Assembly: GCF_900102875.1 (NCBI RefSeq)
Contig: NZ_FNGH01000004.1
Coordinates: forward strand, 243,666-307,665
Length of the DNA: 64,000 bases
Reading direction: 5' to 3'
From: Franzmannia pantelleriensis
Lineage (GTDB): Bacteria; Pseudomonadota; Gammaproteobacteria; Pseudomonadales; Halomonadaceae
In this document: positions 2,125 through 52,539 of the stretch, piece by piece
Numbering within the stretch: the first letter of the stretch is position 1
How the letters are laid out: every line of letters starts with the position of its first letter
Position numbers and translations under genes: made by a program
Notes under the pieces: generated by a model
Seen by the model: only the letters and a program-made list of their open reading frames with translations
The model's database searches: none
What the model was told of the DNA's origin: nothing

Positions 2125-4146
2125 ATGAGTTATCAGGTACTGGCCCGCAAGTGGCGCCCGCGCACCTTCCACGAGCTGGTCGGCCAGGATCACGTGCGGC
2201 GTGCGCTGGTCAATGCCCTTGACCAGGGGCGCCTGCACCACGCCTATCTGTTCACCGGTACCCGCGGGGTGGGCAAGACCACCCTGGCGCGAATTCTCGC
2301 CAAGTGCCTGAATTGCACCGCCGGCGGTTACGACGACACTGCCGTGACCTCGACGCCCTGTGGCCAGTGTGACAGTTGTCGAGCCATCGACGAGGGCCGC
2401 TTCGTTGACCTGATCGAGGTCGATGCCGCCTCGCGCACCAAGGTTGAAGATACCCGCGAGCTACTCGACAATGTGCAGTACGCCCCGACCCAGGGGCGCT
2501 TCAAGGTGTACCTCATCGATGAGGTGCACATGCTGTCGACCCACAGTTTCAACGCGCTGCTCAAGACCCTCGAAGAGCCGCCACCCCACGTCAAGTTCCT
2601 GCTTGCCACCACCGACCCGCAGAAGCTGCCGGTCACGGTGCTGTCGCGCTGCCTGCAGTTCACGCTCAAGAACATGCCGCCGGAGCGCATCGTCGAGCAT
2701 CTCGGCAAGGTGCTGGGTGCCGAAGGCGTCGAGTTCGATGAATCGGCGCTGTGGCTACTGGGGCGCGCTGCCGATGGCTCGATGCGCGATGCCATGAGTC
2801 TCACCGACCAGGCCATCGCCTTCGGCCAGGGCGTCGTGCGTCAGGTCGACGTGGCGGCCATGCTCGGCACCCTCGATCATGGCCACCTGCTGGCCCTGGT
2901 CGAGGCGCTGGCCGAGGTCGATGCCGCACGCGTGTTGAGTGAGGTGGCGGCACTCGCCGAGCAGGGCCCCGACTTCGCCGGCGTGCTCGACGACCTGATG
3001 GGTACGCTGCACCGGCTGGCGGTGGCCCAGATGGTCCCGGACGCGCTGGATAACGGCCACGGCGACCGCGAGACGCTGCTGGCACTGGCCACACGCTTCA
3101 CCCCCGAAGACATCCAGCTCTACTATCAGATCGGCCTGCAAGGCCGTGGCGACATGGACCATGCGCCGGATACCCGCACCGCGCTGGAAATGACGCTGCT
3201 GCGGATGCTGGCCTTTCGCCCCCAGGGGGTGCCCAAGCCGGCGACTACGCCGCTGCCCATCAGCAACACTGCGTCCACTCAAGGGCAGCCCGGTGCGCCT
3301 GCGGCAACCGCTGAGGTTCCCGAGTCCGGCTCGGCGCCGGGCGGTGCCGAGCGCGCTGCTGAGCCGCCCCCCGCTGACCCGATGCCGCCGACCAGCGAGT
3401 CGCCCCCCGCAGACCCGGTGCCGCCGACCAGCGAGTCGCCTCCCGTTGACCCGGCGCCGCCGACCAGCGAGTCGCCTCCCGTTGACCCGGCGCCGCCGAC
3501 CAGCGAGCCGCCGCCGTGGGAAGCGCCGGCCGCTGAGCCCGCTGGCCAAGCCCCGTCGGTTGCAGCCCCCGAACCCGTTAGCGCTGCGCCGGCCGAGCAG
3601 GTCGCAGTCCCTGACGAGCCGGTTGCCGATGAGGTCGCGGCCGAGCCGGTGACAGAGACCCACCCGTCGCCCCCGGTGTCCGAGGAATCTGCAACGCCGG
3701 CCGGTGACTCGCCAACTGCCGCGGAGCCTCAAGGGACTGTCGACCACGCGACCTGGCTGGCACGCTTCGACGATCTGGGGTTGGGCGGTTTGACGCGCAA
3801 CCTTGCCGCCCACTGCCTGGTCGAACACGACGACGGCCAGCGTCTGCAGCTCAGGCTCGACCCTAGTCAGGCGGCGATGAATGCCGAGGTCCACGTCGAG
3901 CGGGTCGAGAAGGCGCTGCTCGCGTTGGGCGTAACGCGCCGCGTCAACATCGAGCCCGGCGAATTGCCGCCCGGCATCGAGACGCCGCGGGCCATGGCCG
4001 ATCGTCTCAACGCCGAGCGGCATGCCGCCGCGGTGCAGTCGCTCGAGGCCGACCCTCACGTACAGGAACTCCGCGAGGCCTTCGGTGCCCGATTGCTGGA
4101 AGCCTCGGTGTCCCCACAGCAGCGCAGCGGCGAAGCCGCGCGCTGA
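2125..4146 (+). CDS. dnaX: DNA polymerase III subunits gamma/tau
   Basis: Clamp-loader ATPase of the replicative polymerase, 673 residues from the ATG at 2125. An in-frame GTG 10 codons upstream gives an extension unlike the family, whose members start [12 protein letters not shown], as here. The Walker A motif is GTRGVGKTT (45-53). A zinc-binding set follows (C61, C64, C79, C82, C85), then the DEVH Walker B box, the LSRC sensor/arginine-finger region and the collar domain to about 370. A long Pro/Glu/Ala-rich linker with four 12-residue repeats separates this from a C-terminal domain (about 540-673) that in tau binds polymerase alpha. I see no run of As like the E. coli frameshift signal, so a separate gamma product is not evident. 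It heads the dnaX-ybaB-recR operon. Confidence 0.97.
3361..3504 (+). repeat. Four tandem 36-bp repeats inside dnaX
   Basis: Units start at 3361, 3397, 3433 and 3469. Each encodes a 12-residue Pro-rich unit of the form ESPPxDPxPPTS in the linker between the ATPase core and the tau C-terminal domain. Units 3 and 4 are identical in sequence, which points to recent slippage or duplication. A coding repeat in a disordered linker can change length without breaking either domain. Confidence 0.9.
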
Positions 4147-7232: not shown

Positions 7233-7937
7233 ATGAAACGCTATCGGGGGATAGGCCTGCCGCTGGTGTGCCTGATGCTGGCGGCACCGGCTGCCTGGTC
7301 GCAGTCGAGCAGTTGGGACGCGTTGGCGGAGCCGGGCGAACTCGACTCGCTGTCGGATGACGAGGTACTGGAGATGATCGACGACCTGCCACCTACCGCC
7401 GCGGGCGGTGGAGGCGGCGGTGGCTGCGGGGCCGGGGGCGGCGAGGATGGTGGTGGCTGCGGAGGTGGGTTCCTGCTTAGCGTCAACACCAGCCCCGATG
7501 CTGAGCCGCCCGTGCTGGTGCCGGTCGAAGAACCGGCGGTACCGTCCAATCCGTCGACACCGGGCAATGGCGGCGGAAATGGTGGTGGCGGCAACGGCAA
7601 CGGCAACGGCAACGGCGGTGGAAATGGTGGTGGCGGCAACGGTGGCGGTGCCGGTGGTGGCGGTAATGGCGGTGCTGGCGGCGGCAATGGCGGCGGTGCC
7701 GGTGGTGGCGGTAACGGCGGTGCTGGTGGCGGCAATGGTGGCGGTGCCGGTGGTGGTGGTAACGGTGGCTCGGGCGGCGGTAGCGCCGGTGGCGGGTCAG
7801 GCGGTGGTGGTAACGGTGGCTCGGGCGGTGGTAGCGCCGGCGGTGGGGCAGGCGGTGGCGGTAACGGTGGTTCGGGCGGTGGTAGTGGTGGGGGCGCAGG
7901 CGGTGGTGCCAACGGCGGCAGCGGCGGCGATAGTTGA
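7233..7937 (+). CDS. Secreted glycine-rich repeat protein
   Basis: A 234-residue protein. An N-terminal signal peptide (MKRYRGIGLPLVCLMLAAPA, cleavage probably near AWSQ) is followed by an acidic segment (LSDDEVLEMIDDLP). Next comes a Gly/Cys patch with three or more cysteines, a Pro/Val spacer, and about 120 residues of near-pure Gly with Asn, Ser and Ala (GGGNGG and GGGSAGG units). Such proteins form disordered or silk-like extracellular material, but no function can be assigned. The ATG at 7233 was chosen because it gives a clean signal peptide and follows a G-rich ribosome-binding site. It stands alone, convergent with ptrB. The antisense Pro-rich frame over the same bases is a composition artefact. 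Confidence 0.7.
   Translation: MKRYRGIGLPLVCLMLAAPAAWSQSSSWDALAEPGELDSLSDDEVLEMIDDLPPTAAGGGGGGGCGAGGGEDGGGCGGGFLLSVNTSPDAEPPVLVPVEEPAVPSNPSTPGNGGGNGGGGNGNGNGNGGGNGGGGNGGGAGGGGNGGAGGGNGGGAGGGGNGGAGGGNGGGAGGGGNGGSGGGSAGGGSGGGGNGGSGGGSAGGGAGGGGNGGSGGGSGGGAGGGANGGSGGDS
7561..7934 (+). repeat. Low-complexity GGN-codon repeat tract
   Basis: Short GGC/GGT/AAC units (mostly GGCGGTAACGGC-like and GGCGGTAGCGCC-like blocks of 12-30 bases) repeat through the 3' half of the glycine-rich gene. Two or more longer blocks recur almost unchanged. The tract is prone to slippage and to assembly error. Confidence 0.85.
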
Positions 7938-7976
7938 GATATCGCTACCGCGCCACACGCTGATCGTCACGCGGCC

Positions 7977-13392: not shown

Positions 13393-15066
13393 ATGAGCGA
13401 GCACGCCACTGCCCCGGTTCTCAATGGCCCGGCCCTGGAGCGCCTCGACGATTACGCGTCGGTGATGGATGTCTTCAAGATATCGGCCAGAAAATTTGCC
13501 GACAAGCCGGCCTTTACCTGCATGGGACAGACGCTCACCTATGCCGAACTGGACCGGCAGTCTCAGGCCTTTGCGGCCTGGCTACAGCATGAGACCGGCC
13601 TCGAGCCCGGCGATCGCATCGCCATCCAGCTGCCCAACGTGCTGCAGTTCCCGGTAGCGGTGTTCGGTGCCATGCGCGCCGGCCTGGTGGTCGTCAACAC
13701 CAACCCGCTGTATACCGAGCGCGAAATGGCGCACCAGTTCAAGGACTCGGGCGCCAAGGCGATCCTGATTCTCGCCAACATGGCCGACAAGCTGGAGAAG
13801 GTGCTCGATCGCACCGAGATCCAGCATGTGCTGGTCACCGAACTCGGCGACATGCACGGCTTCCCCAAGCGGCTGCTGATCAATGCGGTGGTCAAGTATG
13901 TCAAGAAGATGGTGCCGGCCTACTCGCTGCCCACGGCCGTGGGGTTCCGCGAGGTACTGAGCAAGGGCGCGGGGCTCAAACTTCAGGACGTCGAGCGCAC
14001 TCCCGACGACGTCGCCGCGCTTCAGTACACCGGCGGCACCACGGGGCTTGCCAAGGGCTCGATGCTCACCCACCGTAACCTTATCGCCAACATGTTGCAG
14101 GCGCGCCAGGCGATCGGTCCGGCCCTCAAGGACGGTGAAGAGACGGTGGTTGCACCGCTGCCGGTCTACCATATCTATACCTTCACCGTGAACTGCCTGT
14201 TCCTGGTCGAGACTGGCAACCATTCGATCCTGATCACCAACCCCCGCGATCTCGACAACTTCGTCAAGGAGTTGAAGAGCGTCAAGTTCAGCGGTTTCAT
14301 TGGCCTCAATACGCTGTTCAATGCGTTGTGCAACCGCGACGACTTCAAGCAGCTCGACTTCTCGCGGCTCAAGCTGACGATATCGGGGGGCATGGCGCTG
14401 ACCAAGGCCGCCGCCCAGCGCTGGGAGGAGGTCACCGGCTGCCCCATCGCCGAGGGCTACGGCATGACCGAGACCTCGCCGATCGTCACCTTCAACCCGG
14501 TTGACGCCATTCAGCTCGGCACCATCGGCAAGCCGGTGGCCGGCACCACGGTCAAGGTGATCGACGACGACGGCCAGGCGCTGCCCTATGGCGAAGCGGG
14601 CGAGCTGTGCGTGCAGGGCCCGCAGGTCATGAAGGGCTACTGGAACCTGCCCGAGGAGACCGCCAAGGCGATGGACGACGAAGGCTGGATCCGCACTGGT
14701 GATATCGCCGTGCTGCAGGAGGATGGCTACGTCAAGATCGTCGATCGCAAGAAGGACATGATCATCGTCTCTGGCTTCAACGTCTATCCCAATGAGGTCG
14801 AGGACGTGGTGGCCAGCCATCCCGATGTGCTCGAGGCCGCCGCGGTGGGGGTGCCCGACGAGGATACCGGCGAGGCGATCAAGCTGTTCGTGGTGTCGCG
14901 CAACCAGGACCTCGATGGCGAGACCCTGCGCCAGTGGTGCAAGAAGGAGCTCACCGGCTACAAGGTGCCCAAGTTCGTTGAGTTCCGCGATGAACTGCCC
15001 AAGACCAACGTCGGCAAGGTGCTGCGCCGCGAGCTGCGTGACCAGGAGACTAAGCAGAGCGCCTAA
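13393..15066 (+). CDS. fadD: Long-chain fatty acid-CoA ligase
   Basis: A 557-residue adenylate-forming enzyme that activates fatty acids to acyl-CoA at the inner membrane, the first step of beta-oxidation. Landmarks are the AMP-binding P-loop TGGTTGLAKG (residues 213-222), EGYGMTETSP, the hinge region IRTGDIAVLQEDGYVKIVDRKKD and the C-terminal catalytic lysine in TNVGKVLRRELR. Length and motifs fit FadD rather than acetyl-CoA synthetase. The gene stands alone, with GGAG 7 bases before its ATG, and is followed by an intergenic structured repeat. Confidence 0.92.
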   Translation: MSEHATAPVLNGPALERLDDYASVMDVFKISARKFADKPAFTCMGQTLTYAELDRQSQAFAAWLQHETGLEPGDRIAIQLPNVLQFPVAVFGAMRAGLVVVNTNPLYTEREMAHQFKDSGAKAILILANMADKLEKVLDRTEIQHVLVTELGDMHGFPKRLLINAVVKYVKKMVPAYSLPTAVGFREVLSKGAGLKLQDVERTPDDVAALQYTGGTTGLAKGSMLTHRNLIANMLQARQAIGPALKDGEETVVAPLPVYHIYTFTVNCLFLVETGNHSILITNPRDLDNFVKELKSVKFSGFIGLNTLFNALCNRDDFKQLDFSRLKLTISGGMALTKAAAQRWEEVTGCPIAEGYGMTETSPIVTFNPVDAIQLGTIGKPVAGTTVKVIDDDGQALPYGEAGELCVQGPQVMKGYWNLPEETAKAMDDEGWIRTGDIAVLQEDGYVKIVDRKKDMIIVSGFNVYPNEVEDVVASHPDVLEAAAVGVPDEDTGEAIKLFVVSRNQDLDGETLRQWCKKELTGYKVPKFVEFRDELPKTNVGKVLRRELRDQETKQSA

Positions 15067-15080
15067 TGCCACTGCCGTGG

Positions 15081-15200
15081 GCGAGGGACGCCGGGGATAG
15101 GCCGAAGAGGAGGTTTGCGCCATGGATGGCGCAAGGTAGCGCCCAGGGATGGGTTTACAGCGCCTCCTCGTAGGCCTATACCCGGATCAGTCCCGAGCAT
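15081..15200 (+). repeat. Structured intergenic repeat, copy 1
   Basis: First of four related 118-120-bp elements in this window. The outer stem is CCGGGGATAGGCC (15091-15103) against GGCCTATACCCGG (15173-15185), with one mismatch. The second stem is GAGGAGG (15107-15113) against CCTCCTC (15163-15169). Hairpin 1 is TTGCGCC/GGCGCAA around ATGGAT (15115-15134). Hairpin 2 is CCCA-GGGA-TGGG (15142-15153). A terminal GGGAC/GTCCC pair closes the element. It sits between fadD and hrpA. Confidence 0.9.
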
Positions 15201-15315
15201 TGCTGGATTGGTTGGGCGCCCTGAATTAGGCGCGGCCAGGCGCCAAGCGTTACACTATGCTGCCCGCCTCGGGAACACCGGGGCGGGCAGTGTCATTTCA
15301 ACCTGTGAGGCTGCC

Positions 15316-33360: not shown

Positions 33361-34593
33361 ATGTCGTTGCTGGCGAGGGTCAGGCAGCTGCCCTTCGAGG
33401 TGCGCCAGTACCTGCTGATCACCGGCAACTACTGGGCCTTCACCCTCACCGACGGCGCGCTGCGCATGCTGGTGGTGCTCTACTTCAGCCAGTTGGGCTA
33501 CTCGCCGCTTGAAGTGGCCATGCTGTTCCTGTTCTACGAGGCGTTCGGCGTGGTCACCAACCTGGTGGGCGGCTGGCTCGGCGCGCGGCTGGGGCTCAAT
33601 CGCACCATGAACGTCGGGCTCGGTCTGCAGATCGTCGCCCTGGCGATGCTCCTGGTCCCCGCCGGCATGCTCACGGTGGTATGGGTGATGGCCGCCCAGG
33701 CGCTGTCGGGGATCGCCAAGGACCTCAACAAGATGAGCGCCAAGAGCGCGGTCAAGGTGCTGGTGCCCAAGGAGAGCGCCAGCGCCGGCAGCGCGCTCTA
33801 CCGCTGGGTGGCGATGCTCACCGGCTCCAAGAATGCCCTCAAGGGGCTGGGGTTCTTTCTCGGCGGGCTGCTGCTCACGCTGATCGGCTTCCAGGGCGCG
33901 GTACTGGCCATGGCGTTGATGCTCAGCGGGGTGCTGGGGCTGTCGCTGTGGCGGCTGCGCGCCGACCTGGGCCGTCAGAAGGCCAAGCCCAAGTTCTCCG
34001 AAGTGTTCTCCAAGTCGCGAGCGGTCAATGTGCTGTCGGCCGCTAGACTGTGCCTGTTCGCCTCCCGCGATGTGTGGTTCGTGGTGGCGCTGCCGGTATT
34101 TCTCTACGATCAGCACGGCTGGAGCCAGTGGACCGTGGGCGGCCTGCTGGCGGTGTGGGTGATCGGCTACGGTGGGGTGCAGACCCAGGCGCCCAGGCTG
34201 ACCCGCCTGATGAGCGGCGAGGCGCGGGTGATCACCGCCGGCTGGGCCGCGGCCTTGGCGCTGCTTGGCGTGGCCCTGGCGCTGCTGCCGCTGACCGCGG
34301 TGGGCTGGCTGGTGGCGGGGCTGCTGGCCTTTGGGGTACTGTTTGCCATCAACTCCAGCTGGCATAGCTACCTGATCGTGCACTATGCGCGTGCCGACGG
34401 CGTGTCGATGGACGTCGGCTTCTACTACATGGCCAACGCCATGGGCCGGCTTATCGGCACGCTGCTCTCCGGCTGGCTATACATGGCCCACGGCCTCAGC
34501 GCCTGCCTGTGGGTAGCGGCGGCGCTGGTCGCCGCCAGCGCCTTGATGGCCCTGGCGCTGCCGCGCCAGGCCGATACCGCGGTCGCCGATTAG
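33361..34593 (+). CDS. arsJ: ArsJ, organoarsenical (1-arseno-3-phosphoglycerate) exporter
   Basis: A 410-residue major facilitator protein with about 11-12 membrane helices. The N-terminal YLLITGNYWAFTLTDGALRM and the loop GIAKDLNKMSAKSAVK are distinctive of ArsJ. It removes 1-arseno-3-phosphoglycerate, so arsenate is detoxified without reduction. The start could also be the GTG at 33349, which overlaps the GAPDH stop; I used the ATG at 33361. The tight spacing fits the known GAPDH-ArsJ functional pair. A structured repeat follows. Confidence 0.92.
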   Translation: MSLLARVRQLPFEVRQYLLITGNYWAFTLTDGALRMLVVLYFSQLGYSPLEVAMLFLFYEAFGVVTNLVGGWLGARLGLNRTMNVGLGLQIVALAMLLVPAGMLTVVWVMAAQALSGIAKDLNKMSAKSAVKVLVPKESASAGSALYRWVAMLTGSKNALKGLGFFLGGLLLTLIGFQGAVLAMALMLSGVLGLSLWRLRADLGRQKAKPKFSEVFSKSRAVNVLSAARLCLFASRDVWFVVALPVFLYDQHGWSQWTVGGLLAVWVIGYGGVQTQAPRLTRLMSGEARVITAGWAAALALLGVALALLPLTAVGWLVAGLLAFGVLFAINSSWHSYLIVHYARADGVSMDVGFYYMANAMGRLIGTLLSGWLYMAHGLSACLWVAAALVAASALMALALPRQADTAVAD

Positions 34594-34608
34594 GGTAGGG
34601 TTACCGCA

Positions 34609-34727
34609 GCGAGGGACGCCGGGGACAGGTCGAAGAGGAGGTTTGCGCCATGGATGGCGCAAGGTAGCGCCCAGGGAAGGGTTTACAGCGCCTCCTCGCA
34701 GGCCTGTCGACGGATCAGTTCCGAGCG
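34609..34727 (+). repeat. Structured intergenic repeat, copy 2
   Basis: Related to the element at 15081. The outer stem reads CCGGGGACAGGTC against GGCCTGTCGACGG, so an A-U pair of copy 1 has become C-G (ATAGG/CCTAT to ACAGG/CCTGT). The GAGGAGG/CCTCCTC stem and TTGCGCC/GGCGCAA hairpin are unchanged. Hairpin 2 is CCC-AGGGAA-GGG. The closing pair uses a G-U (GGGAC/GTTCC). It separates arsJ from arsR. Confidence 0.9.
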
Positions 34728-34811
34728 GTGCTGCCTATCTGCGATAGCCCTGCCGATCAGGACCATCAAGTTGAATGCGTCAATATCATAGAAATAATCA
34801 AGAGAGGCCCC

Positions 34812-43242: not shown

Positions 43243-43662
43243 GTGGCACAGCCTACACCCATGGACGCCTCTGCCGGAGGGTTGCGCACGATCCGCAACG
43301 CGCTGTATCTGGTGCTTGCCTGGTGCAGCTTTGCGCTGGGCGTGATCGGCGTGTTCGTGCCGCTTATGCCGACCACCTGCTTCATGCTGCTGGCGGTATG
43401 GGCCGCCTCGCGCGGTTCGCCGCGTTTTGCCCAATGGATTCGTGAGCACCCACGCTTTGGTGCCTCGGTGGTCGCCTGGGAGCGTGAGCGAGCGATTCCA
43501 CGGCGTGCGAAATGTGTGGCTATCCTGATGCTTGGTTTTTCGGTGTTGGTGCTGCTGCTGACGGTGCCAAGCCTGATCGTCAAGCTGGCACTGGTCACCG
43601 GTCTCAGCCTGCTGGCGCTATGGATAGTGACCCGCCCGGCGCCGGGGCACCCCTCGCTATAG
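43243..43662 (+). CDS. ybaN: YbaN (DUF454) family inner-membrane protein
   Basis: A 139-residue membrane protein of DUF454, function unknown. Typical features are an N-terminal helix containing GVIGVFVPLMPTTCFMLLAVWAASRGSPRF and a second hydrophobic pair at the C-terminus (LMLGFSVLVLLLTVPSLIVK and following). The intervening loop has the family RFGASVVAWERERAIPRRAK. GTG at 43243 was preferred: GGAGGAG lies 5 bases upstream, whereas the in-frame ATG at 43207 has no site. It is followed by structured repeat copy 3. Confidence 0.85.
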   Translation: MAQPTPMDASAGGLRTIRNALYLVLAWCSFALGVIGVFVPLMPTTCFMLLAVWAASRGSPRFAQWIREHPRFGASVVAWERERAIPRRAKCVAILMLGFSVLVLLLTVPSLIVKLALVTGLSLLALWIVTRPAPGHPSL

Positions 43663-43735
43663 TCGGTGCGGTTGAAGCCTCTCGCAGTGAGGGGCGCAAG
43701 AATTAAGCTGAATAGCAACTGCAAATGGCTGCGGT

Positions 43736-43853
43736 GCTCGGGACTGATCCGGCGGCAGGCCTGCGAGGGGGCGCTGTAAACCATCCCTGGGCGCTACCGA
43801 TGCCATCCATGGCATCGAAACCCCCTCTTCGGCCTGCCCCCGGCGTCCCTCGC
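43736..43853 (-). repeat. Structured intergenic repeat, copy 3 (reverse orientation)
   Basis: Read on the minus strand it is the same element as at 15081, with compensated stems: outer CCGGGGGCAGGCC/GGCCTGCCGCCGG, second stem GAGGGGG/CCCCCTC, hairpin 1 CGATGCC/GGCATCG around ATGGAT, hairpin 2 CCA-GGGA-TGG. It is the only copy in reverse orientation and lies between ybaN and pepN. Confidence 0.9.
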
Positions 43854-43884
43854 GCATCGTCATCGGGAAGTCTGACGATGCTTT
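43854..43884 (+). terminator. Perfect 9-bp hairpin after ybaN, possible weak terminator
   Basis: GCATCGTCA (43854-43862) pairs with TGACGATGC (43873-43881) around a 10-base loop, then TTT. The short T run makes termination uncertain. It abuts repeat copy 3 and precedes pepN by 60 bases. Confidence 0.4.
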
Positions 43885-51681: not shown

Positions 51682-52326
51682 ATGCTGCTGGATGCCCAGT
51701 TCTGGCCCTTTCTGATTGCCATTACCCTGCTCACCATGAGCCCCGGGGTGGACACGTTACTGGTGATTCGCAACACCGCTCGGGGCGGGGTGCGTGATGG
51801 GGTGCTGACCAGCCTGGCGATCTGCTGTGGGCTGTTCGTGCACGCTGCGGTGTCGGCCCTGGGGATTTCGCTGATCCTGCTGCAATCGGCCTGGGCGTTC
51901 CACCTGCTCAAGCTGGTAGGGGCTGCCTATCTGATCTGGCTCGGGGTGCAGAGTCTGCTCAATGCGCGTCGCGGCGTGGCGCTGCCGGTCGCCGCCATGG
52001 GCATCGAGCGCTCGCCGGTAACGGCCTGGGTGCCGCTGCGTGAGGGGCTGCTGTCCAATGTGCTCAATCCCAAGACGGTGGTCTTCTACATGGCGTTTCT
52101 GCCGCAGTTCATCGCGCCAAGCGACCCGGCGCTGCTCAAGTCGCTGTGGCTGGCCGGCGTGCACTTCCTGATCGCCAACCTGTGGCAGATCGCCATCGTG
52201 TTGACGGTAGGGCGCGCCGGCCAGTGGCTGGCCAAGCGCTGGGTGTCGCGCTGCCTGGAGGGCGCCACCGGCACGGTGCTGATTGGCTTTGGCGCCAAGC
52301 TGGCGCTGGAGCAGCGGCCGGTCTGA
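51682..52326 (+). CDS. LysE/RhtB family amino-acid exporter
   Basis: A 214-residue, six-helix exporter. The N-terminal FLIAITLLTMSPGVDTLLVIRNTARGG is the family signature, and LLSNVLNPKTVVFYMAFLPQF is the second conserved block. Typical substrates are homoserine, threonine, lysine or leucine; not decided here. The ATG at 51682 follows GAGG at 9 bases and gives family length; longer in-frame starts add 62 unrelated residues. Structured repeat copy 4 follows. Confidence 0.88.
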   Translation: MLLDAQFWPFLIAITLLTMSPGVDTLLVIRNTARGGVRDGVLTSLAICCGLFVHAAVSALGISLILLQSAWAFHLLKLVGAAYLIWLGVQSLLNARRGVALPVAAMGIERSPVTAWVPLREGLLSNVLNPKTVVFYMAFLPQFIAPSDPALLKSLWLAGVHFLIANLWQIAIVLTVGRAGQWLAKRWVSRCLEGATGTVLIGFGAKLALEQRPV

Positions 52327-52358
52327 TACTGCTATGGGCGACGGGCTGCGGCATATCA

Positions 52359-52477
52359 GCGAGGGGCGCCGGGGATAGGCCGTAGAGAGGGTTTCGATGC
52401 CATGGATGGCATCGGGAGCGCCTAGGGATAGCTTGTAGCGCCCTCTCGTAGGCCTATCACCGGATCAGCGCCGAGCA
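52359..52477 (+). repeat. Structured intergenic repeat, copy 4
   Basis: Same element as at 15081, with compensated changes: outer CCGGGGATAGGCC/GGCCTATCACCGG, second stem GAGAGGG/CCCTCTC, hairpin 1 GATGCC/GGCATC around ATGGAT, hairpin 2 CTA-GGGA-TAG. In the terminal pair GGGAC becomes GGGGC while GTCCC becomes GCGCC, so the A-U pair is replaced by G-C, with one mismatch. It lies between convergent lysE-type and slt genes. Confidence 0.9.
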
Positions 52478-52539
52478 TGCGGGCTACGCGCTGATGTTTA
52501 CATCATGTTGCTCGCAGCTCGGGGCTCGCAGCTTTAAGT

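Follow-up and report, generated by a model that had tools for sequence, protein, structure and literature searches.

What keeps the stems of a repeated palindrome paired while their letters change? This question arises at positions 43,736 to 43,853 of a 64,000-nucleotide stretch of the Franzmannia pantelleriensis genome (the whole stretch analysed, called the window here). A preliminary description, made from the letters alone, noticed that both sides of several stems change together between copies of a repeat, and it proposed selection on the structure of an RNA or of a DNA cruciform. We find that the window carries four copies of one repeat, each about 119-125 bp long. The described copy and the three further copies, at 15081-15205, 34609-34733 and 52359-52483, are real, and the stems named earlier are present. 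The strand needed a correction: the GGA loops lie on the minus strand at 43736 and on the plus strand in the other three copies. The features are as follows.

43732..43855, minus strand: the copy of the preliminary description, GGA-loop strand minus with its 5′ end at 43855; both flanking gene calls are antisense to it, and it lies 70 nt beyond the stop of the gene ending at 43662
43798..43817, minus strand: hairpin 1 of this copy, CGATGCC-ATGGAT-GGCATCG, hexaloop at 43805-43810
43781..43790, minus strand: hairpin 2 of this copy, CC-AGGGAT-GG, hexaloop at 43783-43788
15079..15202, plus strand: element copy beginning 13 nt past the stop at 15066; both neighbouring gene calls run in its sense
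15115..15134, plus strand: hairpin 1 of the 15079..15202 copy, loop ATGGAT at 15122-15127
15142..15153, plus strand: hairpin 2 of the 15079..15202 copy, loop AGGGAT at 15145-15150
34607..34730, plus strand: element copy beginning 14 nt past the stop at 34593; both neighbouring gene calls run in its sense
52357..52480, plus strand: element copy, 31 nt after the stop at 52326, next gene convergent

Searching the window with Rfam, we found the bacterial small SRP RNA (RF00169, 1869-1965, 72.7 bits) as the sole match at threshold. Short-period repeats within open reading frames at 7568-7956 and 3361-3540 (9/12/15 nt and 36 nt spacing) are probably repetitive protein segments.

The repeat is dispersed over the whole 4.4 Mb genome. 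Plain similarity gave 44 matches, and a covariance model gave 89 with E values no higher than 1; we took forward the 58 strongest (≥62 bits). The model, R1, was built from 36 full copies of this genome, the rows left in the alignment after removing copies shorter than 93 nt and L034, and then L021. RNAalifold, run unguided, folded the repeat into one long stem with two hairpins at its tip, and 18 of 34 pairs showed double changes. For the 31 pairs that we named, 98.3% of the cells were paired across the 36 copies, compared with 87.8% in shuffled alignments. The cells changed on both sides numbered 138 (35.9 in the shuffles), and 18 of the 31 pairs were doubly changed (10.1 in the shuffles); none of the 500 shuffles was as high for any of these three values. 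The count of further pair types was less striking (32 versus 28.1, with 9 of 500 shuffles as high). Shifting one side by a single column brought the pairing below 50%. The claim that compensatory changes keep the stems intact is thus borne out, with 138 changes on both sides where 35.9 were expected.

As a covariation check, for which R-scape had been proposed, we used a tree-aware null from a custom R-scape-like procedure (not R-scape itself) with 60 null alignments. Among 7503 column pairs, four pairs of the structure reached E < 0.05 and none outside it did. The number is modest, since the copies of this genome are closely related, but it is specific. Within the hairpin 1 stem, each of the four Watson-Crick pairs is found at positions 2 to 6. 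The preliminary description had also raised the possibility that the copies are simply two lineages of a palindromic transposon. This is contradicted by several pairs with three to four pair types and by the unrelated stems of relatives described below.

For comparison beyond this genome, a search pattern that covers hairpin 2 only, leaving the arms and hairpin 1 untouched, was run on public genomes. It gave at least 122 matches once those near locus ends were dropped; 10 of 122 lacked a 10-pair stem and were also dropped, leaving 112 elements (the wide set). Stems of 16-47 pairs are found in 112 of the 122 listed matches.

Both hairpin loops read CANGGANG, a form of the Rsm consensus. In hairpin 1, the fixed letters of C A N G G A N G are present in 36 of 36 own-genome copies. 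In hairpin 2, each fixed letter has at most one exception, and the last G is gapped in 9 of 36 copies, which have a shorter stem. The two N positions of the loop are the only ones that vary freely among the 36 copies. The GGGA of hairpin 2 had been read as a GNRA-type tetraloop with a changing closing pair, and this reading is ruled out. GGGA sits in an ANGGAN hexaloop, its first letter is variable (G 32, T 3, A 1), and the supposed closing pair is not conserved, the letter after GGGA being T 22, C 9, A 3 and G 2 against an invariant A. The loop ATGGAT, described as unchanging, is indeed constant in the four window copies but not in the 36, where its second letter is T 25 or G 11 and its last letter T 32, A 3 or C 1.

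The wide set retains the same loops. Among the 112 stem-bearing elements listed, 103 carry GGA in the hairpin 1 loop and the other 9 carry none there. In these 103 listed elements, the fixed flanks of hairpin 1 are C in 89, A in 90 and G in 88, all four letters occur at the first N, and N is variable at both loop places. The spacing from GGA to GGA is 22-24 nt in 98 of the 103, although the stems vary.

These loops resemble CsrA sites. A review gives the CsrA SELEX consensus as RUACARGGAUGU, mostly in hexaloops closed by AC/GU and in hairpins mostly of four or fewer pairs (PMC7652899). A CsrA dimer bridges sites 10-63 nt apart (PMC7652899, PMC4066749), best above 18 (PMC7652899). The repeat places its GGA in hairpin loops that fit RUACARGGAUGU and CANGGANG, and the 22-24 nt between the two falls within the bridging range; one own copy, L037, holds the SELEX consensus letter for letter. 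Unlike most SELEX hairpins, hairpin 1 often has more than four pairs. Outside the loops, AGC before hairpin 2 and TTYAC after it are conserved, and CsrA alone does not account for these letters. Judged from sequence, the tip likely functions as a double CsrA site.

Some copies are larger. An inserted module of about 80 nt lies in hairpin 1 of 9 of the 58 own copies, where the match is 165-172 nt long. In the predicted fold, all nine (9/9) carry a further CATGGATG or CAAGGATG hairpin in the module, while hairpin 2 is absent from the fold in 4 of 9, one of these without its GGA. The module loci are L320-L326, L300 and L294 (own genome) and L344, and a similar module is present in the G003 ortholog of the 52359 copy. 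The module may be a nested mobile unit or an extra CsrA site.

Checking the genomic placement, we found all 58 of 58 own copies to be intergenic by our own gene caller; here and below, gene positions come from simple codon-usage callers and not from annotation. Relative to the GGA strand, both neighbours are sense in 37 copies and antisense in 11 (p 2e-4); five copies lie between convergent genes, four between divergent ones, and one is ambiguous. Copies sense to the upstream gene start at a median of 31 nt past its stop codon, and for 39 of these 42 copies the distance is at most 75 nt. The 11 antisense copies, the one at 43736 among them, are 6-70 nt from the stop codon of the opposite gene. 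The sense bias is weaker in the wide set (34 versus 21, p 0.10), counted over 93 listed intergenic elements after removing 15 of 112 whose neighbours could not be called and 4 of the remaining 97 that overlap a gene call.

Our main reading, to which we give a probability of about 0.6, takes the repeat as a dispersed non-coding element: transcribed, it would fold into a long stem with two GGA hairpins and bind one CsrA/RsmA dimer across them. Lying mostly just behind stop codons, the element would be part of the host gene's transcript, as 3′-UTR or intercistronic RNA. It could then tether CsrA to the host mRNA and alter how stable this message is or how well the next gene is translated, and the some 58 copies per genome might jointly act as a CsrA sink. 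Transcription in Franzmannia pantelleriensis, CsrA binding and the effects on mRNA are what we infer from the features above.

The best-surviving alternative keeps the RNA and changes its role. The element would be a general stable 3′ stem that delays decay of the message or is an RNase III cleavage site, and its tip would be read by a protein other than CsrA. The 31-nt median distance of sense copies from the stop codon, the stems of 16-47 pairs and the conserved letters outside the loops, not required by CsrA, speak for it. We consider it unlikely nevertheless, since both loops fit the CsrA SELEX core at bridging distance with only N free, and some copies have gained a module with this same loop in it.

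Of 58 genomes searched with the repeat model, 27 contain the element, the own genome among them. Scanning public genomes with the pattern gave at least 119 stretches, and nearly all of the 80 titles listed name gamma-proteobacteria. Hosts among the matches listed are Halomonas, Stenotrophomonas, Microbulbifer, Marinobacter, Shewanella, Rheinheimera, Yersinia, methanotrophs and others. In a sample of the phylum, 25 of 398 genomes matched, all in the class of the window's organism, with up to 68 matches per genome; the reversed control pattern gave no matches in the same 398 genomes. The own genome has one csrA gene, and csrA is present in all 25 element-bearing genomes (25/25) of the phylum sample. 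Within the class, 104 of 137 genomes have csrA, and the element is found in none of the 33 without it (hand count, p 5e-4), an association confounded by ancestry.

Comparing copies within genomes of relatives, we find that tip and stem behave differently. In G039, G041 and G055, the stems are long (about 30 bp) and near-perfect, and hardly any two copies share a related one, whereas their tips are alike. Arm pairs alike number 0 of 105 in G039, 3 of 325 in G041 and 1 of 66 in G055; in G039 the element ends are also alike between copies, by eye. The stem of G051 is common to all 21 pairs compared, and the stems of the own genome are also alike. G051 shows nine csrA matches together with many element copies sharing one common stem.

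Spread by phages or plasmids was rejected on the scant matches in both collections. In the viral collection 17 stretches matched, several of them without the hairpin 1 layout by eye. The own copy at 15079, used as query, matched nothing among phage records, and the 72,556 plasmid records yielded a single 1.8 Mb Halomonas record. The Yersinia copy L173, used as query against 5426 E. coli genomes, matched 5 of them, each time only in part.

Occupancy of the sites differs between sister species. Upstream of pepN, by eye, the own genome (G000) carries the element on the minus strand and G003 on the plus strand, and none is present in G001, G002 and G004. At the 52359 site, G003 has the same element plus the extra module, G002 a remnant, and G001 and G004 none; at the 34609 site, G002 and G003 retain the 5′ part and G004 the 3′ part, with nothing in G001 (both partly by eye). 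Occupancy at these three sites thus differs among five genomes whose neighbouring proteins are 92-99% identical. Comparing filled and empty pepN sites by eye, we saw no clear target-site duplication; the outer arms do pair. As orthologous sites are often empty or partial, no single copy looks essential. In the G002 and G003 orthologs of 34609-34733 (L351, L354), a purine-rich AGGAGAGA directly precedes what appears to be the start codon of the next gene, giving the impression that the remnant was reused as a ribosome binding site.

The repeat could also be a REP- or MITE-like mobile element whose hairpins are seen by a transposase as single-stranded or cruciform DNA, the match to an RNA site being incidental. 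High copy number fits this, as do the pepN site, whose occupancy varies among species of one genus, two of them carrying the element in opposite orientations, and the stems shared in G051. So do the inverted element pairs that are frequent in G041, G039, G055 and G046, about 150-260 bp apart from start to start, in a REPIN/BIME-like layout. The placement of the own-genome copies, biased to sense, goes against it. A direct test is available, because a G·T mismatch on one strand is an A·C on the other. Selection on a DNA hairpin alone predicts equal remnants of the two, and a cruciform treats both strands alike.

We counted these remnants in the elements of public genomes by aligning the 5′ arm as DNA to the complement of the 3′ arm. 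Omitting 11 of the 112 wide-set elements with an arm alignment score below 12, we find in the long stem of the 101 listed elements 121 G·U and 29 A·C on the GGA-loop strand (p 1.5e-14). By sign per element, 60 favour G·U and 12 favour A·C, and isolated long-stem mismatches alone give 67 versus 11. An order-level set (67 of 83 matches kept from five genomes, those with more than two substitutions or a low score omitted) gives 77 versus 31, with G046 unbiased at 1 versus 1. The own genome gives 17 versus 4 over the 31 named pairs. This last excess vanishes if an extra helix beside hairpin 2 is counted, which adds 3 G·U and 15 A·C. The helix (GUA/UAC, own columns 60-62 with 80-82), which appears in the predicted folds of some own copies, was excluded for two reasons: 14 of 36 copies have A·C as the third pair, and its GUA is present in only 18 of the 112 listed wide-set elements.

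The stem of hairpin 1 shows no such excess, with 18 G·U and 17 A·C in 105 listed wide-set elements, and 4 and 3 at positions with both neighbours paired. We therefore assign the wobble asymmetry to the long stem. A mutation bias linked to transcription is an unlikely cause, as the 15 wide-set elements antisense to both neighbours still give 14 G·U and 2 A·C. With the long stem biased four-fold to one strand, the DNA cruciform and pure template-switch repair, which treat the strands alike, are disfavoured as sole causes, though not by hairpin 1. Of the two options left open by the preliminary description, the RNA is thus favoured over the cruciform. Selection on the structure, and on RNA in the case of the long stem, is very likely, and the incidental-RNA account of a mobile DNA, to which the unbiased hairpin 1 still lends some weight, appears improbable.

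The preliminary description had argued that neutral decay would not keep the pairing. The argument is incomplete, as quasipalindrome correction also keeps the arms matched. Template switching during replication, copying arm onto arm, could explain without selection why near-every copy in G039, G041 and G055 has its own near-perfect stem; as the whole explanation it is very improbable, for it predicts equal G·U and A·C where the long stem has 121 and 29, and it conserves neither loop letters nor the 22-24 nt spacing. It may contribute to the drift of stems.

Returning to the RNA that would bind a CsrA dimer, its fixed tip and its turnover can be combined in a broader proposal, which we consider less likely than not. 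The element would be mobile and its unit of selection the CsrA-binding RNA, with the tip fixed and the stem free to differ per copy, so that each insertion behind a gene would plug it into the Csr network. CsrA regulons are usually viewed as single mRNA leaders plus a few sponge RNAs. If the proposal is true, the repeat equips dozens of 3′-UTRs with a preformed double CsrA site, and its turnover between sister species is a direct route for global regulon change, a rewiring by insertion. Counting G·U against A·C also offers a simple test of RNA versus DNA selection in palindromic repeats.

How does the element compare with known systems? REP elements, REPINs and other short palindromic repeats are likewise intergenic, of high copy number and often of alternating orientation (PMC2817692), and REPs are 20-40 bp long and tagged with GTAG or CGTC (PMC3733652). 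The repeat is set apart by its length of about 120 bp and its branched tip of two hairpins. The sponge RNAs CsrB, RsmY and RsmZ have several GGA hairpins per molecule, as it does, and capture CsrA. They are dedicated sRNA genes, few in number, whereas the repeat is intergenic and in many copies. RsmZ (RF00166, cut-off 44 bits) is not reached in the own genome, the best match having 14.6 bits and E 0.97.

Two Rfam families also resemble the repeat. The consensus of Ysr224 (RF02770), reverse-complemented, resembles the repeat tip by eye. Ysr224 is modelled on the strand without GGA loops, and its weak matches hit the complementary strand of own copies, the best in the own genome at 22.9 bits being far below the gathering cut-off of 70. 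Ysr224 is reported to have several copies with differing expression in Yersinia ruckeri (PMC12112432) and is among the most frequent sRNA annotations of a survey (PMC9029176). That a family with reported Yersinia transcripts is modelled on the opposite strand counts against our main reading.

TwoAYGGAY (RF01731) is like the repeat in its long variable outer stem, its two tip hairpins with GGA hexaloops and the AG linker between them, and both have gamma-proteobacteria among their hosts. It was listed in 2010 as a probable RNA of the human gut, gamma-proteobacteria and Clostridiales (PMC2864571) and was predicted in 2014 to bind CsrA (PMC4333381). Its cut-off of 43 bits is not reached in the own genome, where the best match is partial at 30 bits. 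A 60-nt core match of 30 bits at G000:C13:195122-195184, below threshold and not listed by the repeat model, could be a single-copy relative. Among 15 genomes searched, own included, TwoAYGGAY is above threshold in three. One of these places, G041 438399-438516, is also found by the repeat model; the third (L338, G189) was not recovered on rescanning the locus against all Rfam. Where the family has AYGGAY loops, the repeat has ANGGAN in both hairpins, with T at the place of the first Y in 25 of 36 copies in hairpin 1 and G there in 32 of 36 in hairpin 2. The repeat differs in that hairpin 2 usually reads AGGGAN, followed by the conserved TTYAC, and in having tens of copies per genome. In the portions of the literature on CsrA with repeats, TwoAYGGAY, RF01731 and Ysr224 that we covered, we found no description of the family as a dispersed repeat, nor of its strand asymmetry, its free stems or its link to Ysr224. 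The CsrA idea for RNA of the TwoAYGGAY shape is already known, and the repeat family grades into TwoAYGGAY. If our reading is true, it ties the TwoAYGGAY and Ysr224 families together and gives them a strand.
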